A stretch of DNA of 37,668 nucleotides from a virus. Below, one piece after another: positions 4,620 to 36,600 of the stretch. The notes under the pieces were generated by a model. That model had not been told where the DNA came from, made no database searches, and saw only the letters and a program-made list of their open reading frames with translations. How positions within the stretch are numbered: position 1 is the stretch's first letter; the number at the start of each line of letters is the position of its first letter. The stretch lies in IMG/VR virus record IMGVR_UViG_3300042465_002205, positions 1-37,668 of that record. One strand, given 5' to 3'. Made by a program: the position numbers and the translations under genes.

Positions 4620-4852
4620 TGATTCTTCCTGCTGGTGTAAGTGCTTTTCGTAAACCCGTGCAATTGCCCGGTATGAATTATGGCGAAAGTCATTTTCTAA
4701 ATGGCTTCACATGGCCTTACGTCAATTCCAAAGGCAAGCAGTATGATACCACGTTGACCCCAAGTGGTTGGGTTTGCAATTGCATGGGGTATAACTTCCA
4801 CAACAAGTGTAAACACATTGTTGCGGTACATGAAAAGGTGATAGCAGAATGA
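4619..4852 (+). CDS. SWIM zinc-finger protein
   Basis: The 77-residue product has a CxC...CxH arrangement (VCNCMGYNFHNKCKHIVAV), the SWIM zinc-finger pattern, in its C-terminal third, preceded by a short beta-rich region (GKQYDTTLTPSGW). SWIM fingers bind DNA or protein; here the finger is nearly the whole protein. It precedes another cysteine-rich gene with an ATGA overlap. Confidence 0.8.
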   Translation: MILPAGVSAFRKPVQLPGMNYGESHFLNGFTWPYVNSKGKQYDTTLTPSGWVCNCMGYNFHNKCKHIVAVHEKVIAE

Positions 4853-5250
4853 TTGTTGAGAATACCGTAGTATGTCTGAGTTGTGGGGACAAGATTGTCT
4901 CTAAGCATCGGCATGACTTTGTAACTTGCACCTGTGGTGCTGTCTCTGTAGATGGCGGACAGTCTTATCTTCGTCGCGTAGGCGATTTTGGAAATGCTAT
5001 GGATTTGTCTTGGTCGCTTCCCGATGAAGTCTACAATGATTGCGCAGAGGCAGCACAAAATGCTGCCGACACTGGTCGCAATAAGTTTGGTATTGCTAAT
5101 GCGGTGATGCGGGTTTTGCGTGAGCGTGGACATATTGTCGCCGAAGGTGAACAACGTGTGATGGCAAAGAGTAAGGACCTTGATGAAGTTATGGTCATCG
5201 AGGCAGATGGTAGTTATAATCGCTATAAGAAGGTGAATGAAGATGAGTAA
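4849..5250 (+). CDS. Zinc-ribbon phage protein
   Basis: The 133-residue product has an N-terminal CLSCG...CTCG ribbon (Cys9/Cys12 and Cys27/Cys29) with a His-rich bridge (SKHRHD), then DGGQSYLRRVG, as in small zinc-ribbon proteins of T4-like phages. The C-terminal half is helical and acidic. The role is unknown; regulation of transcription or nuclease inhibition are possibilities only. Confidence 0.72.
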   Translation: MIVENTVVCLSCGDKIVSKHRHDFVTCTCGAVSVDGGQSYLRRVGDFGNAMDLSWSLPDEVYNDCAEAAQNAADTGRNKFGIANAVMRVLRERGHIVAEGEQRVMAKSKDLDEVMVIEADGSYNRYKKVNEDE

Positions 5251-5482
5251 GATTACAGTAGAACTTGATTGGGACACCATTGACGGCATTGTAGTCGGGC
5301 AATTGCGTGACACATGGCAGAACCTCAAGAGCGACTTAGGCGCTGGTAAGTGGGTGTTTGTCTTTGGCGACCAAGAGGCAGAAGATGCCCAAATTCAGAA
5401 GCATATTGATGCGCTTGAGGTAGTCCTCAAGTGGTATTCAACTCCAGAACAACAGGCAGATATGGGTCTAACAGATGAATAA
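5243..5482 (+). CDS. Conserved-type hypothetical phage protein
   Basis: The 79-residue product begins MSKITVELDWDTIDGIVVGQL and has an amphipathic C-terminal helix (AQIQKHIDALEVVLKWYS). Short proteins of this pattern recur in T4-like phages. The ATG at 5243 is preferred to 5237 because AGGTGA lies 6 bases upstream. Confidence 0.7.
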   Translation: MSKITVELDWDTIDGIVVGQLRDTWQNLKSDLGAGKWVFVFGDQEAEDAQIQKHIDALEVVLKWYSTPEQQADMGLTDE

Positions 5483-5654
5483 GAATGATTTGAAAGAAAA
5501 GGCAATTGAAGCCATTCCATATGTTGCGGTGTTCGGCATCGCTGCACTAGCAGTATATGGTATCACCAAGATTGTAGAATCAATTAATGATATTGATTTC
5601 CCACTTGATTGGGGTCATGATCCTTATCTAGACAATATTAATAAGTTGGAGTAA
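5475..5654 (+). CDS. Small single-pass membrane protein
   Basis: The 59-residue product has a charged N-terminus, one hydrophobic segment (about 14-29, IPYVAVFGIAALAVYG) and an acidic tail. The ATG lies inside the end of the preceding gene. Not recognised. Confidence 0.65.
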   Translation: MNKNDLKEKAIEAIPYVAVFGIAALAVYGITKIVESINDIDFPLDWGHDPYLDNINKLE

Positions 5655-5659
5655 GAATA

Positions 5660-5839
5660 ATGGTAAAAGAAGCAAAGGGTGGTACGTTTGCACCCACGGA
5701 TATTCCCGTTATCAAGCGGGCGTTACATTCTTATCTACTCGACCTTATGCGAGTAGAGGGATACAGTGATCGTGAACCACATCCAGATGTGGCTGTTATC
5801 TCAAACCTACTTCACCGATTGGGACGTATCGATGTCTAA
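5660..5839 (+). CDS. Hypothetical small helical protein
   Basis: The 59-residue product has GGAG 8 bases before its ATG. It contains a central YLLDLMRVEGYSD stretch and a PDVAVISNLLHRLGRIDV C-terminus, suggesting a helical bundle. It overlaps the next gene's ATG (GATGTCTAA). Confidence 0.65.
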   Translation: MVKEAKGGTFAPTDIPVIKRALHSYLLDLMRVEGYSDREPHPDVAVISNLLHRLGRIDV

Positions 5840-14910: not shown

Positions 14911-15171
14911 ATGCGAGTCGAACCTGTTGGTATGAATATTCAAGGTGTTGTGAGCCAGATTTGCAACTTCCTAGCCTATGTCGGTGACTTTTACGCCGAG
15001 GGTGGTCTATATGATATGGGTGCGTCCTCGCGCCAGATCCTTGACGCCTTCGACATTTACGCCAAGCGAGTTGGCTACGAGAACATCGCACTGGACTCGG
15101 TAGACCGTGAGGCTATTCGTGATATTATGATTGATGAATTTGGATTGGAGTTTCCACACAATGCGACATAA
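14911..15171 (+). CDS. Hypothetical protein upstream of DNA ligase
   Basis: The 86-residue product is helical and acidic (RQILDAFDIYAKRVG, AIRDIMIDEFGLEF). It overlaps the ligase start by 11 bases, suggesting coupled translation. Not recognised. Confidence 0.68.
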   Translation: MRVEPVGMNIQGVVSQICNFLAYVGDFYAEGGLYDMGASSRQILDAFDIYAKRVGYENIALDSVDREAIRDIMIDEFGLEFPHNAT

Positions 15172-16462
15172 ATGGATTGAACAACTAAACGAGTCCGATA
15201 GCCGCCTGCACAAGGAAGATGTCCTTGCGCGGGCGTTGATTGCAGGTGACCGTATTTTCCTTCACGGCCTGCAGACATGCTATAATCCGTATATCACCTT
15301 TGGTGTGAAGCAGATACCGTCAACTGAGGGCATCACTGGTGCACCGAATCCGTATGTGGAGTTTGATATTCTCCTTACCAAACTGTCTACCAGGCAGTTA
15401 ACTGGTCATGCAGCCCGTGACGCCATTCTTGGCATGTCCCTCAAGTTTGACAGTGATGAGTGGAATCTGTTCCTTGCTCCTATCCTGCGCCGTGATATGC
15501 GGTGCGGTATTAGTGAGAAGACCATCAATAAGGTATGCAAGGGTACCGACTACGTGATACCCACCTTTGGTTGCCAGCTTGCTGCTAACAGCGAAGGGCG
15601 ACCAGAGATGGTAGGTACCAAGTGGCTTGAGCCTAAGCTGGATGGTGCCCGTGTGTTGCTGATGGTTACCGAAGATAATACAGCCACGTGCTACAGTCGC
15701 AACGGTAAGGTATTTGATAACTTCCCACATGTGGAACAACAGGTCCTGAGCAATGTGTATGCTATCCGTGCTTACCTTAAAACCAAGGGTGGCTTCGTGC
15801 TTGATGGCGAGATTATGGGCAAGTCCTTTCAAGACCTGATGCGTCAAGCACAGCGTAAGGAGAACGTCCAGACACAGGACACCGTGTTCAACGTGTTTGA
15901 CATTCTACCTCTTGAGGACTTCAAGCGTGGCTTCTGGAATGCACAGCTACGCAAGCGGCTTGCAATCCTGACTGAAATGCAGCCTGTATTTGATGCCATG
16001 CCTAACGTTACGCGGGTAGATAGCCAGATTGTGGTAGACCTCAGTACCGAAGAAGGCCGCAACAAGCTCCATGAGTATGCCACAGAGATGGTAACGGCTG
16101 GGTTCGAAGGCATCATGATTAAGGACATGGAAGCACCGTATGAGTGTAAGCGCAACACCTTCTGGATGAAGTGGAAGCCTGTAATTACCGTAGACCTTCC
16201 TGTCATTGGTCTAGAAGAAGGCACTGGTCGCAACAAGGAGCGTCTGGGCGCTCTAGTGTGCAGTGGCATTGACCACGGTAAAGATATCACAGTCAACGTT
16301 GGTAGTGGCTTTAGTGACACCGAGCGTGACCTATTCTGGAATCAGAAGAGTGATGTGGTAGGCCGCACAGTGGAAATCCTGTGTGATGTAATAACTCAGA
16401 ACCAAGACGGCAGCTATTCGCTGCGGTTCCCACGGTTCGTTAGGTTTAGAGAGGACAAATAA
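15161..16462 (+). CDS. ATP-dependent DNA ligase
   Basis: The 433-residue product has ligase motif I EPKLDGAR with the adenylated Lys159 and Arg164, motif III (GFVLDGEIMG), motif IV (FEGIMIKD), motif V (FWMKWKP) and a C-terminal OB-fold stretch (LGALVCSG, VNVGSGFSD, VEILCDVI, LRFPRFVRFRED). It seals nicks during phage replication and repair. The length fits phage ligases with an N-terminal helical domain. ATG 15161 has GGAG 10 bases upstream. Confidence 0.95.
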   Translation: MRHKWIEQLNESDSRLHKEDVLARALIAGDRIFLHGLQTCYNPYITFGVKQIPSTEGITGAPNPYVEFDILLTKLSTRQLTGHAARDAILGMSLKFDSDEWNLFLAPILRRDMRCGISEKTINKVCKGTDYVIPTFGCQLAANSEGRPEMVGTKWLEPKLDGARVLLMVTEDNTATCYSRNGKVFDNFPHVEQQVLSNVYAIRAYLKTKGGFVLDGEIMGKSFQDLMRQAQRKENVQTQDTVFNVFDILPLEDFKRGFWNAQLRKRLAILTEMQPVFDAMPNVTRVDSQIVVDLSTEEGRNKLHEYATEMVTAGFEGIMIKDMEAPYECKRNTFWMKWKPVITVDLPVIGLEEGTGRNKERLGALVCSGIDHGKDITVNVGSGFSDTERDLFWNQKSDVVGRTVEILCDVITQNQDGSYSLRFPRFVRFREDK

Positions 16463-25832: not shown

Positions 25833-26444
25833 ATGGTGAGTGATGTAAAAGAATCTGGTGAATACGAAAACTATCTGGACCAAGATGCACGTATGCAAGA
25901 CGAGTATCGCATGTCCCTGGAACATCTGGTAGGGGTGATTGATACACCTCTTGCGGATAACTCTGGTAAACGTAAGGTCGACCCTGATTTGTGGAAAGCA
26001 ATCTACGTCCACTTCCGCAGCGTTGAGGATATCGTAGACTTCTCGAAACGTATCGGGTATATCGTAGCGAGTAATCTTAAAGACTTCTGGTACCCCTTAG
26101 CCGATCCTCGCGCTTCGCTGTTTGATGACGGCCAAGCGCCTTTGGTGGATGTGGAGGCGCGTTTATGCGCTCCGCGAAAGGATAAGAACTTAGCTTCGCT
26201 TGAAGTGGAAGTGAATGAGACCGAAGAGAGTGCTTGGAAAGAGCATTGGGTGGGGATGCCAGAGTTTGAGTATCTAGAAGATAGTGGTCCCATTCGGTCG
26301 GTGATTGTGAAGTTTCGTCGGCTTGAGGACTATGAAGAGTTCTCGCGGCGTATTGACCAGGTGCTGACCGATAAGTCTAAGGCTATCTGGCACCCTAAGC
26401 TAGAGCGAACACCTAACTATCTTCTGAGGTGGATAGAAGAGTGA
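25833..26444 (+). CDS. Protein with internally duplicated domain
   Basis: The 203-residue product contains two related segments: IYVHFRSVEDIVDFSKRIG...FWYPLADP and VIVKFRRLEDYEEFSRRID...IWHPKLERTP. They share the pattern V.F....D...FS.RI..........W.P. The second unit follows MPEFEYLEDSGPI, which matches widespread phage proteins of unknown function that carry one such unit. The copies differ enough that the duplication is not recent. Confidence 0.68.
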   Translation: MVSDVKESGEYENYLDQDARMQDEYRMSLEHLVGVIDTPLADNSGKRKVDPDLWKAIYVHFRSVEDIVDFSKRIGYIVASNLKDFWYPLADPRASLFDDGQAPLVDVEARLCAPRKDKNLASLEVEVNETEESAWKEHWVGMPEFEYLEDSGPIRSVIVKFRRLEDYEEFSRRIDQVLTDKSKAIWHPKLERTPNYLLRWIEE

Positions 26445-27292
26445 TTGAACGTATCTTCATCCCCACAGTCAATCGGGCCGACAACCAGATTACATACAAT
26501 AATCTTCCTGAAGAGTTGAAGAGTAGAGTAACTATGGTTGTGCAGGCGTGGGAGCGTGACCAATATCATTATCCCTGTGAGTATCTGGTGCTGCCAGAAG
26601 AAATCAATCTGACTGACTACTATTGCTTACCCAAGACTCGTAAGATAATCTACGAGGCTGGCCAGAATATGAAGTATGCGGTCATTGATGATGACCTTAC
26701 ATTCGGTAGACGTAACGCCAAATACTGGACTGGCGTGTCTAATATGGAAATGTCTAAGCGTAAAGCTACAGATGAAGATGTCCTAGAAATGTTTGACCTA
26801 TATAGTAAGTGGTTAGACGATGCGACTGTGACAGTATGTGGTCCCGGTCATGCCGAGAACCCACCACAAGACAGTGCGTATAGTAACAACTCTTCTCTTA
26901 GTAGTGCAATCTTTGTAAATGGTAATGATTTCAAAGACTTACTGCCCGAACTTGAACTAACTCGTGTGAAAGTCGCAGAAGATGTTGTTTTTCTTTTGAG
27001 TTTATTGGCTCATGGTTATGGCAATCGTGTCAGTCAAGAGTTTGTATTCTTCAATAACAGTGTCCACAAAGCAGATATGACATCTACTGTGTGGGATGAA
27101 CAAACATATGAGGATACTCAACGGGATCATAAGATTGTTGAATCGATGTTCCCTGGTATTTTCACAATTTTATATGACGATAAGACTGGTGAGCGTATCA
27201 AAGGTGGATTTCGTGATTTTGGTAAGAGCAAAATACGCTGGAGTGAAGCCCTTGGTTCAGCCCAAAGAGGTAATTTGGAGGATTTATTTTAA
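26441..27292 (+). CDS. Glycosyltransferase-like protein (GT-A fold, phage type)
   Basis: With the GTG start at 26441 the product has 283 residues and begins IERIFIPTVNRADNQIT, a nucleotide-sugar-binding strand pattern. YAVIDDDLTF (DDD, 83-85) fits the GT-A DxD position. The next gene has a similar start (VYIVSKGRADTMIT) and VLDDNISDF, so the two are likely distant paralogs of the glycosyltransferase group found in phages with modified bases. GTG overlaps the previous stop; ATG is not available near. Confidence 0.68.
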   Translation: MIERIFIPTVNRADNQITYNNLPEELKSRVTMVVQAWERDQYHYPCEYLVLPEEINLTDYYCLPKTRKIIYEAGQNMKYAVIDDDLTFGRRNAKYWTGVSNMEMSKRKATDEDVLEMFDLYSKWLDDATVTVCGPGHAENPPQDSAYSNNSSLSSAIFVNGNDFKDLLPELELTRVKVAEDVVFLLSLLAHGYGNRVSQEFVFFNNSVHKADMTSTVWDEQTYEDTQRDHKIVESMFPGIFTILYDDKTGERIKGGFRDFGKSKIRWSEALGSAQRGNLEDLF

Positions 27293-28242
27293 TGACTAAC
27301 CCTAAGTATCCCGTTTACATTGTTTCTAAGGGTCGTGCTGATACTATGATTACTTCGCGGTCACTGACTCGCATGAAGATACCTCATTATATCATCATCG
27401 AACCTCAAGATGAAGCAGACTATGAACAGGCCAAAATCAATTTTGGTCTAACTGACTACGTTACTCTGCTTGTTGCGCCGTTCTCTAATCATGGTGATGG
27501 TCCTGGTCGTGCTAGAAACTGGGCATGGGACCATTCTATCAGTATCGGTGCTACCGCTCACTGGGTTCTAGACGATAACATTTCAGATTTCTATCGTCTC
27601 CATCGCAACGAACGTATTCGTGTGGAGTCTGGTGTGTTCTTCACAGTCATGGAAGACTTCTTTGACCGATATGAGAACCTTTACATCGCTGGTCCGCAGT
27701 ATCGTTTCTTCATTGCACCGAACCAAAAGTATCCGCCGTATGTCGCAAACACTCGTATCTACTCGACATTGCTAATCCGTAATGATTGTAAGCATCGTTG
27801 GCGCGGCCGTTACAATGAAGATACTGATATTTGTCTTCGCGTCCTCAAAGACGGTGACTGCACCGTGCAGTTCAATGCGTTCTTACAGGGTAAAGTTGCT
27901 ACACAGACCATCAAGGGTGGTAACACCGCAGAGTTCTATCACAAAGAATTCTTGGAAGAGGGTGAAGAAGTAGAAGGCAAGCGTTACCACGAGAAGGGTA
28001 CCATCAACAAGTCACAGATGTTGGCTGATATGCACCCAGATGTTGCTCGTGTTGTGTGGCGTTATGGTCGCTGGCATCATTATGTTGACTATACACCGTT
28101 CAAGAAGAACACATTGAAGCTAAAAGACGGTGTTGTTCTTCCCGAAGGCGTCAACAATTACGGTATGAAGCTGATTACTCTGCCAGATGACGTAAAATAT
28201 TCAATGAATATGCAAATTGATGATTTTATGTCAACAATTTAG
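27292..28242 (+). CDS. TET-associated-type glycosyltransferase
   Basis: The 316-residue product has YPVYIVSKGRADTMITSRSL, VAPFSNHGDGPGRARNWAWD and WVLDDNISDFYRLHRN (DDN, 94-96), and later RNDCKHRWRGRYNEDTDICL and HYVDYTPFKK. These blocks match the phage glycosyltransferase family described with TET/JBP base oxygenases, which adds sugars to hydroxylated pyrimidines. No TET/JBP gene is visible in this window. If it is active, phage DNA may be glycosylated, protecting it from restriction. Substrate is inference. Confidence 0.78.
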   Translation: MTNPKYPVYIVSKGRADTMITSRSLTRMKIPHYIIIEPQDEADYEQAKINFGLTDYVTLLVAPFSNHGDGPGRARNWAWDHSISIGATAHWVLDDNISDFYRLHRNERIRVESGVFFTVMEDFFDRYENLYIAGPQYRFFIAPNQKYPPYVANTRIYSTLLIRNDCKHRWRGRYNEDTDICLRVLKDGDCTVQFNAFLQGKVATQTIKGGNTAEFYHKEFLEEGEEVEGKRYHEKGTINKSQMLADMHPDVARVVWRYGRWHHYVDYTPFKKNTLKLKDGVVLPEGVNNYGMKLITLPDDVKYSMNMQIDDFMSTI

Positions 28243-29290
28243 TTGTCATCTCGCCTTTTTCGATGTAATTTCTTACCGTTAGTGGTAAAGTCTTACCGGA
28301 AGACTGACTAAAGCGATTTCCTTCTAATTTTAGACGGATATCAAACAAAACTTTCCCATCTACAAGAAATTGTAGCTTGGGAATTTTGTTTTTTGGCATT
28401 ACGCCGCTTCCTTGGTAATCACCCTCATTCAATTTGTCTGTTATACCACTATTAAGTTTCAATTCGATGTCTTTGTCTTTCAACTTTTCTTCCAATTTAT
28501 CGAAATCGTATACTTTTGCCTGATCTCTGTTTAGTTGGACAAGAACTACACTCTCTTCATTCGAAGTTGCGTGAAATTTCATGAAATCTGCGATAGCTTT
28601 TCTCAGAAATTTTTGATCTTTTCTTTTTATTTGATCGTATGCTTCTGTATATGCTGTTGTTAGCGCGGGCGCCAATTGTTTTTTCGATAACATATCGACA
28701 TATGTAGTTTCTGTGGCATTTGAAAATGATACTCCCAGCGGCGCAAAGAGAGATGTCATGCTGGCCCATTTTGAACCACCTACTTGTCCAAATTGTTTAA
28801 CGTCTCCTGCTTTAAGAGAGACGCCGACTCCGCATTGTTTTCCATCAACTACTACTTTTAGGTCAACTTTAGTTCCAGTTTGGTCTAATAAACCCTCTGC
28901 ATTAACTTCTATCGTATTCTTTTGGTTATTTGTGTAGATTGTATCTGCCCATTGTTTTATATAATGACCGTTCGCATACATTACTGCCGATCGGACAAGT
29001 GACATTATATCTGATTTAGTGTAAATCGAAGTATCTAAAAATGCAGTCATATTATTTTCGGCTAGATTTACCTTACATATCACCGTGTCTATAACGTCTG
29101 CTTGCTCATTAGGAGAGGAAAACGTTGTAGTAGAAGTTACGCCTTTTATTTCTTTTTTAGCTTTACTTAACTTCTTAATAATATTAGTAACATCATTAGT
29201 ATTAATGATTTTTGTTTTAGACATGAACCTGGCAGTTATAGCGGCACATAAAATTCCTTCTGAAACATCACCTCTATTAAAACTTGCCAT
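28226..29290 (-). CDS. PD-(D/E)xK-like nuclease candidate
   Basis: The 354-residue product begins ASFNRGDVSEGILCAAITARF. The middle has TKVDLKVVVDGKQ followed by GVSLKAGDVKQFGQVGGSKW, which fits a PD-(D/E)xK core with Asp and a Ser-x-Lys in place of Glu-x-Lys. The start at 29290 has AAGGAA upstream; a longer frame to 29428 would cross the late promoter. The gene runs left, its last 17 bases overlap the end of the glycosyltransferase gene, and it is AT-rich with AGA arginine codons. The fold is a tentative call. Confidence 0.6.
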   Translation of the reverse strand: MASFNRGDVSEGILCAAITARFMSKTKIINTNDVTNIIKKLSKAKKEIKGVTSTTTFSSPNEQADVIDTVICKVNLAENNMTAFLDTSIYTKSDIMSLVRSAVMYANGHYIKQWADTIYTNNQKNTIEVNAEGLLDQTGTKVDLKVVVDGKQCGVGVSLKAGDVKQFGQVGGSKWASMTSLFAPLGVSFSNATETTYVDMLSKKQLAPALTTAYTEAYDQIKRKDQKFLRKAIADFMKFHATSNEESVVLVQLNRDQAKVYDFDKLEEKLKDKDIELKLNSGITDKLNEGDYQGSGVMPKNKIPKLQFLVDGKVLFDIRLKLEGNRFSQSSGKTLPLTVRNYIEKGEMTTKLLT

Positions 29291-29313: not shown

Positions 29314-29333
29314 TATTTATAAATAGAAGTGAT
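29314..29333. promoter_or_regulatory. Palindromic two-way late promoter TATTTATAAATA
   Basis: TATTTATAAATA (29314-29325) is its own reverse complement and holds TATAAATA on both strands (plus 29318-29325, minus 29314-29321). The minus-strand box is well placed for the nuclease-like gene, with AAGGAA between it and ATG 29290. The plus-strand box ends 9 bases before ATG 29334, so that message would be nearly leaderless. Confidence 0.68.
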
Positions 29334-29621
29334 ATGTCATATGATACGATATTTAAACTTATTGGAGATGTAGGATTCCCCATCGCAGCGGCCTTGCTCG
29401 GTGGTGTCTTCGTGTATTTTGTCATCAACTACATTCTTGAGAGCGTTGTGAAGGCGATTAAGGGAATGCAGGGTATTATTATGGGGTTAGACAACCGCGT
29501 GAAAACTATGAACCATGATATTATTCGCGTTGATGCTGTTGTTAGTTCCGCTTTGGGTTTGAAACCAGACCTTGATAGAATTGCACGAGCCGACGGGAAG
29601 AATGACGCAAGGCGGGACTAA
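29334..29621 (+). CDS. Small membrane protein, YvrJ/holin-like
   Basis: The 95-residue product has GFPIAAALLGGVFVYFVINYIL (one transmembrane segment, about 14-35) and then a helical tail with LDNRVKTMNHDIIRVDAVVSSALGLKPD. The GFPI plus segment and D-x-IR motif are shared with the next protein, so they are tandem paralogs. Small proteins of this layout are candidates for holins or for membrane adaptors of the fibre system. Confidence 0.7.
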   Translation: MSYDTIFKLIGDVGFPIAAALLGGVFVYFVINYILESVVKAIKGMQGIIMGLDNRVKTMNHDIIRVDAVVSSALGLKPDLDRIARADGKNDARRD

Positions 29622-29887
29622 TGGATCCGCAACTGATTGCAGAACTTGTTAAGCAGTATGGATTTCCCATTGTGGCCTCAGTCGGTATGGGATATTTCGT
29701 GTGGTTCATTTATAAATTCGTAACAGATAAATTAATGCCGTTGATTGGCGAGACAAATGTAATTTTGATCGCGTTGATTGACCGAATTCGTATGTTAGAT
29801 AACGATCTTATCAGATTAAATCAGAAGGTGAGTGTTGTATTGCAAATAAAAGAGGATCATAGTAATGATGTTAAAAATAAAAATTGA
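29621..29887 (+). CDS. Small membrane protein, paralog of preceding
   Basis: The 88-residue product has YGFPIVASVGMGYFVWFIYKF (segment about 13-33) and LIDRIRMLDNDLIRLNQKVSVVLQIKED, aligning with the preceding protein at GFPI, FV.F, DR and D.IR...V...L..K.D. The start overlaps the previous stop (TAATG). Confidence 0.7.
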   Translation: MDPQLIAELVKQYGFPIVASVGMGYFVWFIYKFVTDKLMPLIGETNVILIALIDRIRMLDNDLIRLNQKVSVVLQIKEDHSNDVKNKN

Positions 29888-29999
29888 GATCCTTAAAGTA
29901 TTTACGCTTGAATTAGATTTTTCTTCAAATAAAACTATAAAGGAAGAGAAAAATGTTAAAACGAGCGCCGATGCTCCTGCTACTACTAAGCCTAAGTAG
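29865..29999 (+). CDS. 44-residue basic protein before csgF
   Basis: AGAGGA lies 8 bases before ATG 29865. The product has a hydrophobic amphipathic start (LKIKIEILKVFTLELDF), a Lys/Glu middle and an Ala/Thr/Pro tail. It overlaps the end of the previous gene and the first 47 bases of csgF in another frame. Good ribosome site but no recognised family. Confidence 0.5.
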   Translation: MMLKIKIEILKVFTLELDFSSNKTIKEEKNVKTSADAPATTKPK

Positions 30000-30402
30000 T
30001 CCTGCATACGCCGACCCTATTGTTCAACAGTTTAAATCACCTTCCTTTACTGGTTATGGGTGGTCTTCGCATGTGCAATCAATCGATGCGCAGGAGCGTT
30101 CTCGTGAGCAAGCAATCAAAGATGCTGAGGCAGCAAAGGCGGCACTAGCAAGAGCAGAGGCATCAAACACTCCTCTTGCAAAGTTTATGGCGCTGTTTAC
30201 CTCTCAGGTTTACGCACAACTTGCTACACAACTTTCAAACAATCTGTTCGCAGAAGGTGGGAATGCCAGCACAGGAACATTCAATCTTGATGGCAACTCA
30301 GTAAGTTACGTTAAGACGGGAACAGAAGTCACACTAACAGTTGTCGATAAGAATGGTAACACTACGGTTGTTACTGTTCCTATTGCTACGTTTGCGTTCT
30401 AA
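29953..30402 (+). CDS. csgF: CsgF, curli assembly factor
   Basis: The 149-residue product has a Sec signal peptide ending SPAYA before DP (residue 20). The mature N-terminus VQQFKSPSFTGYG matches the CsgF segment that threads into CsgG (TFQFRNPNFGG in E. coli), including the aromatic/Asn-Pro pattern. The C-terminal domain reads FTSQVYAQLATQLSNNLF then TGTFNLDGNSVSYVK, matching the CsgF SQIL..LL..I.TG region. It is slightly longer than E. coli CsgF, with an Ala/Glu-rich insert near residues 40-65. AAGGAAGAG lies before the ATG. Its neighbour is csgG in the same order as a minimal secretion pair. Confidence 0.9.
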   Translation: MLKRAPMLLLLLSLSSPAYADPIVQQFKSPSFTGYGWSSHVQSIDAQERSREQAIKDAEAAKAALARAEASNTPLAKFMALFTSQVYAQLATQLSNNLFAEGGNASTGTFNLDGNSVSYVKTGTEVTLTVVDKNGNTTVVTVPIATFAF

Positions 30403-30412
30403 GGAGATGACC

Positions 30413-31237
30413 ATGAAAAAGTTAATTCTCCTTCCACTTCTTCTCGCAACTTCTGGTTGTGTTGGTGCGCTTCATCCTACCACCAACCAATCATATCTCT
30501 TTAGAGACGATGCCGAAGTCAAGCGTTTTGCTAATCCAAAACTGTTCAAGAATCTACCAGAGTTAGATGGTCAACCAATTCCCATCGCTCTATACTCGTT
30601 CACTGATAGAACTGGTCAACGTAAACCATCTTCGACCCTTGCAAGTTTCTCTACTGCGGTAACTCAGGGTGCAGATGCATATTTGATTAAGACTTTGCAA
30701 GATACGGGTGATGGTAAGTGGTTTGTTCCCGTTGAACGTGTCGGTATTGATTCGCTGATCAAAGAACGTCAACTTGTTCGTCAAATGCGCGAACAGATTT
30801 CAGGAGAGAGCGCAGAACCTCTGCCTCCATTGAAAGTTGCGGGTATCATCATTGAAGGTGGTATCATCGACTACAACTCAAACATCAAGACTGGTGGTAC
30901 TGGTGCTCGCTTCCTCGGCGTCGGTCCATACCAGCAATATACACAAGACCAAGTTACAGTTAGTCTTCGTCTAGTCTCTGTCCAAACAGGCGAAGTTCTC
31001 AATTCGGTTACTGTAGAGAAAACAGTTCTCTCTACTTCTGAGGGGATAACTGCATTCACATTCTTTGACATGGCAACCAAAGCATTTGAATTTGATGGAC
31101 AACAAACAAGTAATGAAGCCGGTAGTTATGCGATCCGTTCTGCCATAGAAACGGCCGTTGTTGAGTTAATCAAGGATGGTGAAAAGAAAAATCTATGGAG
31201 ATTCAAACAAAAGGAAACGACAAATGAAACTAAGTAA
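30413..31237 (+). CDS. csgG: CsgG, curli secretion lipoprotein pore
   Basis: The 274-residue product starts with a lipoprotein signal (TSGC, Cys16) and then follows CsgG closely: ALYSFTDRTGQRKPS...ASFSTAV, DGKWFVPVERVGIDSLIKERQLV, IIIEGGIIDYNSNIKTGGTGARFLGVG, YTQDQVTVSLRLVSVQTGEVL and the C-terminal SAIETAVVELIKDG. E. coli CsgG forms a nine-subunit outer-membrane export channel. The constriction Phe (E. coli Phe56) appears kept at Phe79, whereas the Tyr51 and Asn55 positions look replaced by small residues and the loop is one residue longer. AAGGAG directly follows the csgF stop. Confidence 0.95.
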   Translation: MKKLILLPLLLATSGCVGALHPTTNQSYLFRDDAEVKRFANPKLFKNLPELDGQPIPIALYSFTDRTGQRKPSSTLASFSTAVTQGADAYLIKTLQDTGDGKWFVPVERVGIDSLIKERQLVRQMREQISGESAEPLPPLKVAGIIIEGGIIDYNSNIKTGGTGARFLGVGPYQQYTQDQVTVSLRLVSVQTGEVLNSVTVEKTVLSTSEGITAFTFFDMATKAFEFDGQQTSNEAGSYAIRSAIETAVVELIKDGEKKNLWRFKQKETTNETK

Positions 31238-31997
31238 GTTTTTATTCGTTGGAGCTGCACTTTGTTATGGAACATCTGCGATTGCACAGACTGTATTGCC
31301 GACAGCGCCAACACCACCAGCAATTGTAACAACATCGCCTAATGAAACCGATGCGAATGCTGTTGCAACAACAAACAAGGTGTATATCGATCAAGAGGGG
31401 GGTAACGTAGATGTTAACGTTGTTCAAACTGGGACTGCTAATGTCATCGGTTCTGCTATTGATCCTATTTACCTACGTGGTGATAACCAAAGCGTCATCG
31501 CAATTCAAACAGGCAATGGAAACCAACTTTATATGGGTATCGTATCCGACACCGGAGCCCAAGGAATCGCCGATGTAACAATTCGTCAAATCGGTGACCT
31601 GAATACCGCTGATATCCGTTGCGGAGTATTACAATCAGATTCTTCGTGTAATCAGCTTGACATGAATGCTAAGTTCACTGGTAATAACAATGCTTTTGTT
31701 TTCCGTGGTTCGGGTGCAAATATCCGCAACTCAATGGAGTTCAATGGTAATAATAACACTATCAATATGGATGCGTTGTCACCTAATGCAACACAGACCC
31801 TTCTAGTAACGGGTAACTACAATGATTTTGATGTTACACAAACTGACCTCGGTGGGACATTCGGTCACTCTCTGTATGTAAATCTAACAGGCTCTCTTAA
31901 CACCATAACAACACAACAATATGGTGCCTCAGAAACTGTGATCAACATCAACAGCGTGGGATCTAATGGCACGTTTAATATCAAAACTGGTCACTAA
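31224..31997 (+). CDS. Curlin-repeat fibre subunit (CsgA/CsgB-like)
   Basis: The 257-residue product has a signal peptide (cut after AIAQ region), a Pro/Thr-rich link, and then repeated N-x-(V/I)-x-x-Q-x-G strands: VVQTGTANVIG, IQTGNGNQLYMG, IRQIGDLNTADI, FTGNNNAFVF, FNGNNNTINM, VTGNYNDFDVTQ, LTGSLNTITTQQYG. This is the amyloid-forming curlin pattern, looser than E. coli CsgA and with two cysteines in one unit. It starts inside the csgG end, so it is co-translated with the secretion pore that would export it. Confidence 0.85.
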   Translation: MKLSKFLFVGAALCYGTSAIAQTVLPTAPTPPAIVTTSPNETDANAVATTNKVYIDQEGGNVDVNVVQTGTANVIGSAIDPIYLRGDNQSVIAIQTGNGNQLYMGIVSDTGAQGIADVTIRQIGDLNTADIRCGVLQSDSSCNQLDMNAKFTGNNNAFVFRGSGANIRNSMEFNGNNNTINMDALSPNATQTLLVTGNYNDFDVTQTDLGGTFGHSLYVNLTGSLNTITTQQYGASETVININSVGSNGTFNIKTGH

Positions 31998-33111
31998 TCT
32001 TCTACTGATTTTTCTGTTATCGACTCCTGCCTTTGCTGGTATTGGGTCGATAACAGATTTCAGAGGAGGTGGTGCTATTAAGCGTGGCGCCAAGACTACG
32101 GTAGCGTCTAAGGGCGCTGGTGTAGAAAAGATGGATACAATTTCTACAAACTCGCAAGGTAGATTTAGGATTACATTCAATGACTCGACTACTGTTAATA
32201 TTACAGAAAACTCTCGACTTCTTGTGGATGACTTTGTGTATGATGGGGGAGGGAAGACGAAGGGCAAACTTGGACTTCGGGTCGCGCTCGGCACCGTCAG
32301 ATACACCTCAGGTAAAATCGCCAAAGGCAACGGAAAAGGCGTAAACATTCGCACACCAACTGCTACTATCGCAGTTCGTGGCACGGACTTCGTTATGTCG
32401 GTCGATGAAGCAGGTCGTTCTACGGTCGTGCTGGTTCCCGAATGCTATAACGAATTAGATATTACAAAGCAAACTGCCGATTGTCCCAATGGGGCAATCG
32501 ATGTTATCACTGCGGCGGGTGTGGTTACATTAAATCAACCATTCCAAGCAACGGTTGTAGAAAACTCGTATGCTCCTCCTGCGCCACCAGTTGTCATCAA
32601 TCCTCTTGTTAAGACACTAGACAACAACGTCCAAATCGTTCCTCTAGAAACAGATGATGGTCAAAGTATACTTCAACTTGCTAGAGACAGTTTGAAGAAG
32701 TTTACTAATCCAGCAAGAGCGGCATCGGATGATAACAAAGACCCAGATGCTGGTACAACTGATAACGTCGAACAAGTTTCGGTAGCAATGCTTCGTCCAG
32801 CAACACCACAAGAACTACTGGAAGTTTTTGCTGAATATAATGAAGGCAACACACCTCCAGAAACAATCTACACTAATGTTTCTCCTACGTTCAAGAAAAA
32901 CTTACAGGTCGGCTGGGTGTATACTCGCTTATCTGAGGATAAGCAACAAGCGGTAACTATCTGGTTAGAAAAAGGAACTGAGGCGCAAGTAGTTTCAGTT
33001 CAAAACGGTCTAGTCGATGTTTATAACTTCATGGACGACAAGTGGACATCATCAGGAACTGGTAGACCACAAGGTAATATTACAGTGATACAGGAAACAG
33101 GTGTAAGATGA
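31966..33111 (+). CDS. FecR-domain periplasmic/secreted protein
   Basis: The 381-residue product has a signal peptide ending AFA before GIG (residue 24), then a FecR-type core: GGGAIKRGAKTTV, GVEKMDTISTNSQGRFRITFND, STTVNITENSRLLVDDF, LRVALGTVRYTSGK and VNIRTPTATIAVRGTDF. The C-terminal half is Pro-rich, then helical. FecR domains sense envelope signals in TonB/sigma systems and also pair with CHASE2-cyclases in bacteria. Its start overlaps the curlin gene by 32 bases. Confidence 0.87.
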   Translation: MARLISKLVTNLLLIFLLSTPAFAGIGSITDFRGGGAIKRGAKTTVASKGAGVEKMDTISTNSQGRFRITFNDSTTVNITENSRLLVDDFVYDGGGKTKGKLGLRVALGTVRYTSGKIAKGNGKGVNIRTPTATIAVRGTDFVMSVDEAGRSTVVLVPECYNELDITKQTADCPNGAIDVITAAGVVTLNQPFQATVVENSYAPPAPPVVINPLVKTLDNNVQIVPLETDDGQSILQLARDSLKKFTNPARAASDDNKDPDAGTTDNVEQVSVAMLRPATPQELLEVFAEYNEGNTPPETIYTNVSPTFKKNLQVGWVYTRLSEDKQQAVTIWLEKGTEAQVVSVQNGLVDVYNFMDDKWTSSGTGRPQGNITVIQETGVR

Positions 33112-34562
33112 AAAGACTAATTGCTCTCTTCCTACTATTCTTTGCGATGCCAGTATTTGCACAAGTTACGAACTACGGTTTCGAAAACGGCGACTATGCG
33201 GGCTGGACTGTTAGTAACGGTTCTACTGCACTAAAAACAAACTGGAGTTCTGATGGTTCAGGTGTTCAAGTAACAACTGGTATGACTAACTATTGTCCAG
33301 GTGGCGGTAAGTGCTGGACTATTACACCATATGGCTCATACATGGTATCGCTACAAGCAGGTGGTGGTTCGCCTGGATTTGATGGTGCTATGTCTACCTT
33401 GGGATTACAAAGTTCTACAATTACATCAATTAAGAACACCATTTACTCTAATGGTAACATGTATCCTACAAATGCAACTTCTATCAGTAGAACAGTATTT
33501 CTTCAAGCTGGAGTGACATACACTTATGCTTGGCAGTATGTTTCGACCGACTATGTTCCATATAATGATGGTTCGATGATCACAGTTACGGGTGGTCCAG
33601 GAACTGCCACAATCAATGGACAAACACAAGACTTTGCGCTTCTCGGATTTACCAATCAAGGAACTGGTAACTATTCTGTGGGTTCTTATGGTGCGACTGG
33701 TTGGCAAGTCGCGGTGTTCACTGTACCTACAGATGGCAACTATCTACTAGGGTTTGCCTCATTCAATCTAGGCGATACAGCATTGTCACCAATTCTATTC
33801 ATCGACCAAATGCAAGGAACAACTTCGCTCAACGGAACAACCTTTACACCAGTTGCTCCGAATGCTGGTTCTTCTGCGCCGCCACCTCCTGCTCCTGAAC
33901 CCCCTGCACCCACTTATCCGCTTGCATCAATTAGTGCTAACCAAACACTAAAGATTAATCAAAAAAATTCTATTACTCAAAACTCTATCTACATCAATGC
34001 AACTGGTTCTAACAACTCAGTTTATATTGAACAGTTTTCTAAGCAGAACCAAATTCGTGGTGTCAATGGCGCACAAGCAATGACTATTAACGGTAGCGGT
34101 AACAACATTACTATCAATCAAGGTACAGCGACCACGCCAATCGGCAAGAACCTAGCAGAAGTTTCTGTTACTGGTAACAACAATATAGTATCGTTGACAC
34201 AACAATATAATGGTAAATACGCCGAGATTATAACCAATGGTCTAGGTAATCAAATAACTGTCCAGCAAAAAGATGTTAATGAAAAATCGTTGTTTATCAA
34301 TGCTTTAGGAAATACTAATGTTATCGGTGCGTTACAAGAAGGTACTGGCAATCACTTCTTAGAAATTAATGCCCCATTTGGTGGAGTTACTGCATCTGTT
34401 ATCCAATTAGGTTCTTCTGCAAAGCAATTTCAACTTTTACTAAATAGTCCTGGAATTGGTGTGACGGTTACACAAAATAACTTGACTGTCGCTGACTCTG
34501 CGAAAATGGAAATAACATGCACGACTGGACCATGTAATGGATACTCTTACACAAAGAACTAA
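33108..34562 (+). CDS. Large curlin-repeat protein with beta-sandwich-like N-terminal domain
   Basis: The 484-residue product has a signal peptide (cut near FAQ19), an N-terminal domain opening NYGFENGDYAGWTVSNG, like jelly-roll carbohydrate-binding domains, a Pro-rich linker (about 250-271), and then curlin repeats such as YINATGSNNSVYIEQ, INGSGNNITINQG, VTGNNNIVSLTQ, ITNGLGNQITVQQ and LGNTNVIGALQEGTGN. It may be an adhesive or capping subunit of the same fibre: the repeats join the amyloid and the N-terminal domain faces outward. Four-base overlap with the fecR-type gene. Confidence 0.85.
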   Translation: MKRLIALFLLFFAMPVFAQVTNYGFENGDYAGWTVSNGSTALKTNWSSDGSGVQVTTGMTNYCPGGGKCWTITPYGSYMVSLQAGGGSPGFDGAMSTLGLQSSTITSIKNTIYSNGNMYPTNATSISRTVFLQAGVTYTYAWQYVSTDYVPYNDGSMITVTGGPGTATINGQTQDFALLGFTNQGTGNYSVGSYGATGWQVAVFTVPTDGNYLLGFASFNLGDTALSPILFIDQMQGTTSLNGTTFTPVAPNAGSSAPPPPAPEPPAPTYPLASISANQTLKINQKNSITQNSIYINATGSNNSVYIEQFSKQNQIRGVNGAQAMTINGSGNNITINQGTATTPIGKNLAEVSVTGNNNIVSLTQQYNGKYAEIITNGLGNQITVQQKDVNEKSLFINALGNTNVIGALQEGTGNHFLEINAPFGGVTASVIQLGSSAKQFQLLLNSPGIGVTVTQNNLTVADSAKMEITCTTGPCNGYSYTKN

Positions 34563-36600
34563 AAAAGTTTTACTCTCGCCTTGGTTGGCGCTATTTACTT
34601 TTAGTATTCTTCTTTGGGTAAAACTATCTGACCCATACATGGTAGAATCCACAAGATTGAAGTTTTATGATTATTTGATGCTTGGTTCGCCGACGCAATC
34701 CGAACAAATTGTAACCGTCAATATTGGGGAGAAAGCAATTGAGAAATATGGCCAGTGGCCTTTCCCGCGGGAAGTCCATGCTAAAATTATTGGGGACATT
34801 TATGGCAGAGGGGCTGCTCTTGTTGGTGGCACTATACTTTACCCTGAGCCTGATCGGATGGGGACTGATAGAGTTCTTGCGAATTCCCTAAATCAGTATC
34901 CAGTTGTTCTGAGTCAGACGGTAAGCGACTCTTGTTCACGGGCAAGTGCGACAATTCGGAGGACAGGCGTTGCCGTAATCGGCGATGGAGAAGCAACTGA
35001 ATTTCTTCCTCAATACCCGTGCGTTCTAAGTAATATTGCACCTCTGCAAGAAGCCGCTGCCGGTGTTGGGATAACGTCAACCCTACCCGAGAGTGATGGG
35101 GTTGTAAGGCGAGTTCCTCTTCTATCTCAAACATCAGGCGAATACTATCCCGCATTTGCTCTAGAGATGCTGCGTGTAGCTGCAGGAGACTCTTCGTATC
35201 AAGCCAAGATAAATCAGACTGGGGTCGAAGCATTACGAATTCCTTCTTTTGAAACTATTAAAACAGATGAATATGGTAGAGTGTTCGTCAATCCGAACTA
35301 CCGATTCCAGTCAGTCGAAATTGGAGCGGATCCTTTACCTGACCTGAATGGTAAAATTGTGATTGTTGGTGTAACTGCTGCTGGTATTGCGAACCCTGTA
35401 GCGACTCCATCAGGTGCGCAACATCCCCACGTCCTTCAGGCGAGTATTCTTGAAACTCTGATAAATGGAGATTCTGTTTCGATTCCGAACTGGTCAGCAA
35501 TTGCGGATCTAGCGGCGTTTCTGGGTCTTGCTCTGGCATTGATAATTCTTTCTCGTTTTCGTTTCTCTATAATTTATATCGGCATATTACTAGCTGGATA
35601 TTTTTATCTACCAACATATCTGTTCGTAAATAAAGGTATTCTGTTTGATGTAACATTCAACATCATTGCCATTGCACTAATTTACATTCACATCTATACA
35701 GTAAAGTTTATTAGTGAATTCCTTCAGAAGCAACAGATTAAGAAACAGTTTGGCACATATCTGTCACCTGCGATGGTTGAGAAGTTACAGAAGAATCCAG
35801 AACTACTTGCTCTAGGTGGTGAGTCCAGGGAGTTGTCGATAATGTTTACCGACGTTCGTGGGTTTACTACTATATCAGAACACTATGGTGAGGACGTTCA
35901 AGGCTTAACTAAGATTATGAACAGATATATGACAGCGATGACCGCTCGTATTATCGAAAATGAAGGCACACTTGACAAGTATATTGGTGACGCACAGATG
36001 GCTTTCTGGAATGCACCGTTAGATGATAAAGACCATGCGTTGAATGCTGTCCGCACAGGACTCGCAATGCTACAAGATTTGGAGACTTTCAATGAAGAAG
36101 TTAAAGCAGAAGGCATTCCAGCTTTCGGTATGGGCCTTGGTATTAACACTGCCACTGTGGTTGTTGGTAATATGGGCAGCGACCAGCGTTTTGATTACAC
36201 TTGCTTGGGTGATGGGGTTAATCTGGCTGCTCGTCTCGAAGGTCAAACCAAACCTTATGGGGTCAAACTCATCGTCGGACCACAAACGGCCGAATTGGTT
36301 AGGGATGTATACCAAGTAGTCGAACTAGATTTGATTGCTGTCAAAGGTAAAACCGAGCCAGCTAAAATTTTTACTGTCTTAGAAACCTTCGACCACGCGG
36401 GTGAGAAACAACATGAGAAGTTTCTAACACTATATCGTCAAGGTAACTGGGAAGCTGCCCAAAAATTTGCCAGCGACTTAAAGAAGTGCTGGCAAGGTAA
36501 TTTATCAGATTATTACGACTCGATGATTAGCCGTATTGAAGAGTTTCGGGTGTCACCTCCGAAAGATTGGGACGGGGTGTATCGGGCGACTTCGAAGTAA
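34537..36600 (+). CDS. CHASE2-domain class III adenylate cyclase
   Basis: The 687-residue product has an N-terminal membrane segment (about 15-30), a CHASE2 periplasmic domain (about 35-318), three membrane segments (about 322-338, 344-362 and 370-388) and a class III cyclase domain (about 430-615). The catalytic set looks complete: metal ligands Asp439 (FTDVRGFT) and Asp485 (GDAQMAF), adenine-selecting Lys481 and Thr555, and transition-state Asn562 and Arg566 (VNLAARLE). It would make cAMP in response to a periplasmic signal, plausibly from the FecR protein. It overlaps the curlin gene by 26 bases, so belongs to the same operon. Confidence 0.93.
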   Translation: MDTLTQRTKKVLLSPWLALFTFSILLWVKLSDPYMVESTRLKFYDYLMLGSPTQSEQIVTVNIGEKAIEKYGQWPFPREVHAKIIGDIYGRGAALVGGTILYPEPDRMGTDRVLANSLNQYPVVLSQTVSDSCSRASATIRRTGVAVIGDGEATEFLPQYPCVLSNIAPLQEAAAGVGITSTLPESDGVVRRVPLLSQTSGEYYPAFALEMLRVAAGDSSYQAKINQTGVEALRIPSFETIKTDEYGRVFVNPNYRFQSVEIGADPLPDLNGKIVIVGVTAAGIANPVATPSGAQHPHVLQASILETLINGDSVSIPNWSAIADLAAFLGLALALIILSRFRFSIIYIGILLAGYFYLPTYLFVNKGILFDVTFNIIAIALIYIHIYTVKFISEFLQKQQIKKQFGTYLSPAMVEKLQKNPELLALGGESRELSIMFTDVRGFTTISEHYGEDVQGLTKIMNRYMTAMTARIIENEGTLDKYIGDAQMAFWNAPLDDKDHALNAVRTGLAMLQDLETFNEEVKAEGIPAFGMGLGINTATVVVGNMGSDQRFDYTCLGDGVNLAARLEGQTKPYGVKLIVGPQTAELVRDVYQVVELDLIAVKGKTEPAKIFTVLETFDHAGEKQHEKFLTLYRQGNWEAAQKFASDLKKCWQGNLSDYYDSMISRIEEFRVSPPKDWDGVYRATSK

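Follow-up and report, generated by a model that had tools for sequence, protein, structure and literature searches.

Why would a virus keep genes of the kind with which bacteria export amyloid fibres? The question is raised by the linear IMG/VR virus fragment IMGVR_UViG_3300042465_002205 (37,668 bp in full, hereafter the window), in which eight plus-strand genes follow one another almost without gaps between positions 29334 and 36600: smTM1, smTM2, csgF, csgG, cur1, fecR, cur2, and a CHASE2 adenylate cyclase gene. We propose that this operon is expressed late and covers the dying cell in amyloid fibres that bind sugars, a reading to which we assign a probability of roughly 0.55. Judged by sequence, the module itself is already known, and the window adds another phage that carries the csgF-csgG-curlin-FecR-curlin-cyclase series. 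New here are the inclusion of the two small membrane proteins (the smTM pair) in the unit, the late promoter, the selection on the genes, the exchangeable head of the second curlin, the jumbo-sized carriers, and the deletion scars. A first-pass annotation of this DNA had described six genes at 29953-36600, and our profile searches recovered all six there; the FecR gene, however, lies between the two curlin genes rather than after both, and the locus begins further upstream, as the smTM pair and the late promoter (29318-29887) also belong to it. That annotation had overlooked the smTM pair and the promoter, as well as the head of the second curlin, which is not of curlin type.

The secretion genes are the most readily recognized part of the operon. 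The csgF product (29953-30402, plus strand) matches PF10614 (7e-18, model positions 5-132 of 132), is 38-41% identical to the CsgF proteins of phages Melnitz and HTVC008M, and carries a signal peptide; the mature N-terminus bears the conserved motif F-K-x-P-x-F-x-G (signal peptides, here and below, were called by eye, as were the lipobox and one beta-barrel). The downstream csgG gene (30413-31237, plus strand), whose start we moved from 30341 to 30413, encodes a predicted outer-membrane secretion pore lipoprotein with a lipoprotein signal (MKKLILLPLLLATSGC, lipobox TSGC) and a strong PF03783 match (2e-52). Its alignment with the E. coli CsgG structures (1e-47) spans both pore beta-hairpins, and the earlier reservation that the protein might not model as a pore does not hold. 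Like PF03783 and the CsgF profile, those for FecR, CHASE2, and the cyclase score well above cut-off in the window, and the curlin profile is reached through relatives.

The cur1 gene (31224-31997, plus strand) encodes a CsgA/B-type protein with a signal peptide and repeats of about 22 residues, and the autocorrelation of its Asn and Gln positions peaks at exactly 22 residues. An AlphaFold model of Cur1 (predicted local distance difference test score, pLDDT, 81 overall and mostly above 85 in the repeats) places strands every 11 residues, a period that recurs in the Cur2 model. Among relatives, the curlin profile PF07012 is matched at E<=0.01 by 26 of 42 homologues of the first curlin and 19 of 44 homologues of the second, and a profile built on the first curlin retrieves the solved curlins 8c50 (8e-06) and 8enq (0.008). 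Through these relatives, solved-structure matches, and models, Cur1 and Cur2 both qualify as curlin-repeat subunits, as the first-pass annotation had supposed.

The second curlin is more than a fibre subunit. The cur2 gene (33108-34562, plus strand) encodes a putative adhesin-curlin fusion, in which AlphaFold predicts a beta-sandwich for the N-terminal ~240 residues (head, residues ~20-260) and a curlin stem for the C-terminal ~200 (residues ~280-484). Foldseek relates the head to the carbohydrate-binding modules CBM61 (probability 1.00, target TM-score 0.63), CBM4-2, and CBM16, with modest E-values (1e-3 to 1e-2) and a low overall TM-score, since only part of the query is covered; the model suggests a sugar-binding type. 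Other heads occur on related stems: among 44 Cur2 relatives, five carry a PA14 domain (including HTVC008M, L204, and L063) and up to eight an F5/8 type C domain (including L049 and L198), and Melnitz and the short forms have none. No relative of the window head was found among named phages. The distribution of sequence identities indicates that heads are exchanged independently of stem and pore. Relative to the window, L068 is 72% identical in the head, 25% in the stem, and 47% in CsgG, and L222 is 62% identical in the head and 25% in the stem; the corresponding values for head, stem, and CsgG are 90, 65, and 81% in L042 and 24, 47, and 74% in L036. In L211, a Cur2-type head is even joined to a different C-terminus, apparently a beta-barrel. 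Such swapping is the behaviour expected of a ligand-recognition part and provides the strongest hint of function.

The timing of expression can be read from the DNA upstream of the operon. An exact T4-type late promoter motif, TATAAATA, lies at 29318-29325 on the plus strand, 8 nt upstream of the smTM1 ATG, and by analogy with T4 late promoters, transcription would be expected to begin on this ATG or a few bases from it, giving a near-leaderless message. Across 113 distinct regions, the exact motif precedes smTM1 in 43, against about 0.4 expected (about 100-fold above chance), and the relaxed form NATAAATA in 69, against about 1.1 expected; upstream of smTM2, TATAAATA occurs in just 2 of 111 regions. 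The occurrences before smTM1 fall into 33 distinct upstream contexts. In five clade mates (L090 and L092-L095), gp23 and genes near it are preceded by this motif as well. It also lies 13 nt upstream of csgF in HTVC008M and overlaps the smTM1 start in Melnitz. The best reading of these patterns is that the operon is expressed late, from the promoter type that serves gp23. Neither sigma-70 promoters nor intrinsic terminators showed a clear excess over shuffled sequences. In the window, the motif is embedded in the palindrome TATTTATAAATA, whose minus-strand reading (29314-29321) faces a divergent gene at 28226-29290 (minus strand; PHROG 3560, function not known), so that this gene and the curli unit have the palindromic site in common.

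The lineage of the window is that of a T4-like phage. The fragment itself lacks gp23, and the assignment rests on the T4 major capsid protein Gp23 and the late motif in the same lineage: five larger close relatives encode Gp23 (E<1e-130), the clade-mate contigs measure 96-171 kb, and a clade-mate Gp23 is 66% identical to those of Melnitz and HTVC008M. Given the IMG/VR classification and the Gp23 genes of the larger clade mates, the window is not a segment of bacterial chromosome, a possibility that had been raised as potentially fatal to the phage interpretation. Contigs of 245-372 kb were among those recovered by a scan anchored on the smTM pair; six of them match Gp23, and jumbo-sized T4-like phages hence carry the module as well. 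A megablast search of the window against named phages returned zero matches. The terminase profile phrog_2 was dropped as proof of viral origin, as it is unspecific and matches 11 of 14 control genomes.

The two small genes at the head of the operon belong to the curli unit. smTM1 (29334-29621, plus strand; ~95 residues, start inferred from alignment) and smTM2 (29621-29887, plus strand; 88 residues) encode paralogues that both match PHROG 18771, a family of no known function; each has a single N-terminal transmembrane segment and a conserved amphipathic helix (LDNRVKTMNHD/LIDRIRMLDNDLIRL). The pair is present in all 17 distinct CsgG loci that have at least 7 kb on each side, stays linked to the module even at rearranged loci, and among named phages is restricted to those with curli genes. 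Profile searches matched it to no Pfam or NCBIfam family; smTM2 shows weak, sub-threshold similarity to the holin family PHROG 4898 (E=0.0088), and a YvrJ match of the pair reached only E=0.07. The pair could be either holin-like or an inner-membrane accessory. The pelagiphage literature places a 'histidine kinase' before csgF (Wittmers 2022, PMC9599517), which probably corresponds to the smTM pair; we rejected the kinase label, because no kinase domain was detected even at permissive E-values.

The unit as a whole is remarkably constant in composition. We counted 92 distinct viral CsgG loci, and from a CsgG-anchored set of 56 distinct loci we took for each gene only those with sufficient flank: CsgF was present in 52 of 52, Cur1 in 49 of 49, FecR in 41 of 41, the cyclase and the small pair each in 17 of 17, and the second curlin in 27 of 30. 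Median dN/dS (the ratio of nonsynonymous to synonymous substitution rates) against 13-15 clade mates is 0.04-0.15 for all eight genes, values that are approximate given the high synonymous divergence (median 0.7-1.4); these estimates show strong purifying selection throughout and exclude relics.

Comparison of gene neighbourhoods places the window beside two cultured phages, Pelagibacter phage HTVC008M and Melnitz, in which all eight genes recur with unchanged order and whose records are already annotated accordingly; the statement in the first-pass annotation that csgGF-like genes occur in some marine T4-like phages corresponds to published work (PMC9599517). In that work, the pelagiphage module is described as a type VIII secretion system with csgF, csgG, csgA/B, FecR, and cyclase genes. 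HTVC008M resembles the window in gene order and in the absence of CsgE, but its proteins are only ~27-50% identical, and its Cur2 bears a PA14 rather than a CBM-like head. The Methylophilales phage Melnitz shares the late motif with the window and differs in its headless Cur2; its curli module was described as incomplete and proposed to be a lysis device (Buchholz 2022, PMC9004378). Although csgA and csgB were reported as lacking there, both genes hold curlin repeats, according to the record annotation and an above-cut-off PF07012 match of Cur2. Phage csgF/G and co-occurring genes were treated earlier (PMC7029224), and a T4-like Bacteroidetes virus bearing curli genes has been described (PMC7198788). 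Bacterial curli loci (csgBAC-csgDEFG in E. coli, csgF-csgG-curlin in sphingomonads) have CsgG, CsgF, and curlins in common with the window, but those we examined lack FecR, the cyclase, and the small pair, whereas the window lacks CsgE.

A bacterial counterpart of the csg-FecR-cyclase arrangement was not found in our searches. Among 289 alphaproteobacterial genomes, four CsgF loci exceeded the cut-off, none with FecR or the cyclase nearby; a genome scan yielded five sphingomonad csg loci with neither gene near csg; and the bacterial loci L085-L089 and L140-L142 had no FecR, cyclase, or small pair within ~9 kb. The single nominally bacterial match with the whole module, L084 (PAHL01000002.1), is a contig in a Flavobacteriaceae metagenome-assembled genome that includes the smTM pair; it is probably phage sequence misassigned to a bacterial bin. 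L098, another contig of that assembly with a cyclase gene, also scores like the phage family.

FecR and the cyclase may have been joined to the csg genes as a ready-made pair. The fecR product (31966-33111, plus strand) has a signal peptide and a FecR domain at residues 57-157 (PF04773, 2.8e-13), with no further Pfam domain above cut-off. Pfam searches revealed neither an anti-sigma domain nor the architecture of an inner-membrane-anchored regulator, and below cut-off the protein resembles the surface proteins LipL45 and Lsa33 and the LapA retention module; this architecture makes an iron-citrate regulator unlikely. The last gene (34537-36600, plus strand) encodes a predicted inner-membrane protein with a CHASE2 domain (PF05226, 6e-39) and a class III adenylate cyclase domain (PF00211, 2e-17). 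D439, K481, and D485 are invariant in 110 of 110 viral homologues and R566 in all 109 with a residue there; position 555 is T, D, or S across homologues (T555 in the window), and N562 of the window is replaced by Ser in 33 relatives. The window protein thus has the complete class III set (two metal-binding Asp, the purine-binding Lys plus Asp/Thr/Ser, and the transition-state Asn and Arg), and this conservation makes cyclase activity probable. Close cyclase relatives from Alphaproteobacteria adjoin a FecR gene in three of the top four matches (L110, L112, and L113), independently of curli: the two genes are divergent there and, in the loci examined, joined to no csg genes, whereas in the window they lie on the same strand within the csg operon. 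This adjacency is consistent with a sensor pair that existed first and was later combined with csg genes. In Sinorhizobium, CHASE2 cyclases occur together with a cAMP-regulated, exported FecR-domain protein (PMC5498481).

Taken together, the parts suggest how such fibres could work. Cur1 and Cur2 would be exported by the Sec pathway and then through CsgG, with CsgF at the pore linking secretion and assembly; Cur1 would form the amyloid shaft, which Cur2 would join by its curlin stem to display its head. The fibres might then attach the dying cell, its debris, or progeny to nearby cells or particles by way of their glycans, and thereby raise the odds of new virions meeting a host. FecR and the CHASE2 cyclase would probably serve as a periplasmic sensor of envelope or fibre condition, with cAMP as the output signal. 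The exchangeable sugar-binding head suggests that the fibres act as glue and not as a mere pore, and together with the late promoter it leads us to favour late adhesion or aggregation over pore-type permeability. More tentatively, and at less than even odds, one may extend this proposal to jumbo-sized T4-like and other phages in general: a late, lectin-tipped amyloid fibre, its head exchanged independently of shaft and pore in the manner of tail-fibre tips, would tether dying cells, debris, and progeny to new prey or particles, and the secretion machine would include hitherto undescribed components, the FecR/CHASE2-cyclase sensor and the obligate small membrane pair. Should the fibre reading be correct, the virus gives its host an adhesive amyloid that the host would not otherwise make and steers where progeny go, which would account for the retention of long curli operons by aquatic phages that otherwise differ widely. 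With the exchangeable heads, the promoter, and the natural deletions, this long-running puzzle becomes directly testable, in part in cultured phages.

Several observations weigh against such fibres. No fibre has been seen. The curlins of the window score only 15.8 and 14.0 bits against PF07012, under the Pfam cut-off of 20.7, and a Foldseek search of the Cur1 model against the PDB gave no significant fold match; curlin identity therefore rests on the repeats, the profile, and the periodicity of the model. The second curlin is missing from three of the 30 adequately covered loci. CsgE (PF10627) was detected in none of the 14 viral records searched, some of them fragmentary, with a positive E. 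coli control, in agreement with the first-pass annotation; its absence alone does not exclude a member of the curli family, as bacteria can form fibres without it (PMC7029224). Finally, Melnitz-infected cultures showed no clumping in cytograms or by transmission electron microscopy (Buchholz 2022, PMC9004378), evidence that is qualified by the missing head of Melnitz Cur2.

Natural losses of the module bear on the alternatives. In L160, the smTM pair is followed by one open reading frame (ORF) in which the CsgF N-terminus (PF10614, 7.6e-07, residues 6-46) is fused in frame to the tail of the cyclase; csgF is truncated in L161, the curli genes are entirely gone from L158, and L156 has kept a remnant of the cyclase alongside a gene for a metallophosphatase that by eye resembles LpxH. 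The smTM pair persists in L158, L160, and L161. Comparison of these loci indicates that phages can do without the curli part, which deletions have removed at least three times independently, with the pair retained. An HNH-like endonuclease ORF (by eye) directly follows the L160 scar (4734-5730) and may have driven the loss. LpxH-like metallophosphatase genes lie within or replace curli modules at L156 10560-12300 and L198 15050-15835, and a role in lipid A modification is possible.

The retention of the smTM pair at these loci, its constant linkage to the module, the weak holin similarity of smTM2, and the late promoter would all suit a device for lysis or release, in which the CsgG pore, perhaps with a holin-like pair, depolarizes or permeabilizes the envelope late in infection and the curlins are secondary; this pinholin/secretin idea was argued for Melnitz from a narrowed pore (Buchholz 2022, PMC9004378). 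We consider it unlikely, as Cur1 is universal and both curlins are under strong purifying selection, CsgF is full-length by profile, the deletion variants show the pore to be dispensable, and a pore has no use for sugar-binding heads. Quite unlikely, too, is a fibre mat that blocks adsorption of other phages, as proposed for pelagiphages (PMC9599517): conserved, phage-encoded surface fibres would mask receptors, but the late promoter would bring them into action after most superinfection, which makes early exclusion in particular less likely and leaves room for late exclusion, and a shield needs no swappable sugar-binding heads. Among the roles that the first-pass annotation had offered, cell binding is the one favoured by promoter and heads, ahead of permeability and an early block to superinfection.

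It is highly doubtful that the site after the smTM pair is simply a slot for exchanging envelope genes, with curli as one option and no common function. The losses in L160, L161, and L156 are what such a slot would produce, yet the genes travel together in the 17 well-covered loci, even where these are rearranged, which argues that they depend on one another. Uptake of nutrients or cofactors, with large molecules entering for phage replication through a CsgG pore left ungated by the lack of CsgE (PMC7029224, PMC9599517), is very improbable: CsgE is indeed missing from the 14 records tested and FecR is named after iron uptake, but expression is late, curlins and CsgF are universal, and the exported FecR protein, with its FecR domain only, resembles surface proteins and not the iron regulator. 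Late adhesion by sugar-binding fibres remains our preferred account of the operon.

Other features of the window and of the searches are recorded here for completeness. A short, unannotated record of Salmonella phage S.Kent 1-2-1 (OR851715.1, 1,499 bp) matches CsgG; it more probably represents host DNA than a gene of the phage. Upstream of the operon, two adjoining glycosyltransferase genes of the TET-associated/beta-glucosyl-HMC type (26429-28242; PHROG 842 for both, PF20691 at 2e-42 for the second) suggest, by sequence similarity, that the phage DNA bears glycosylated bases. An ATP-dependent DNA ligase is encoded at 15131-16462 (PHROG 114, 4.5e-97), and a tRNA-Val gene with anticodon TAC occupies positions 8-83 on the extreme left of the fragment and could aid host assignment.

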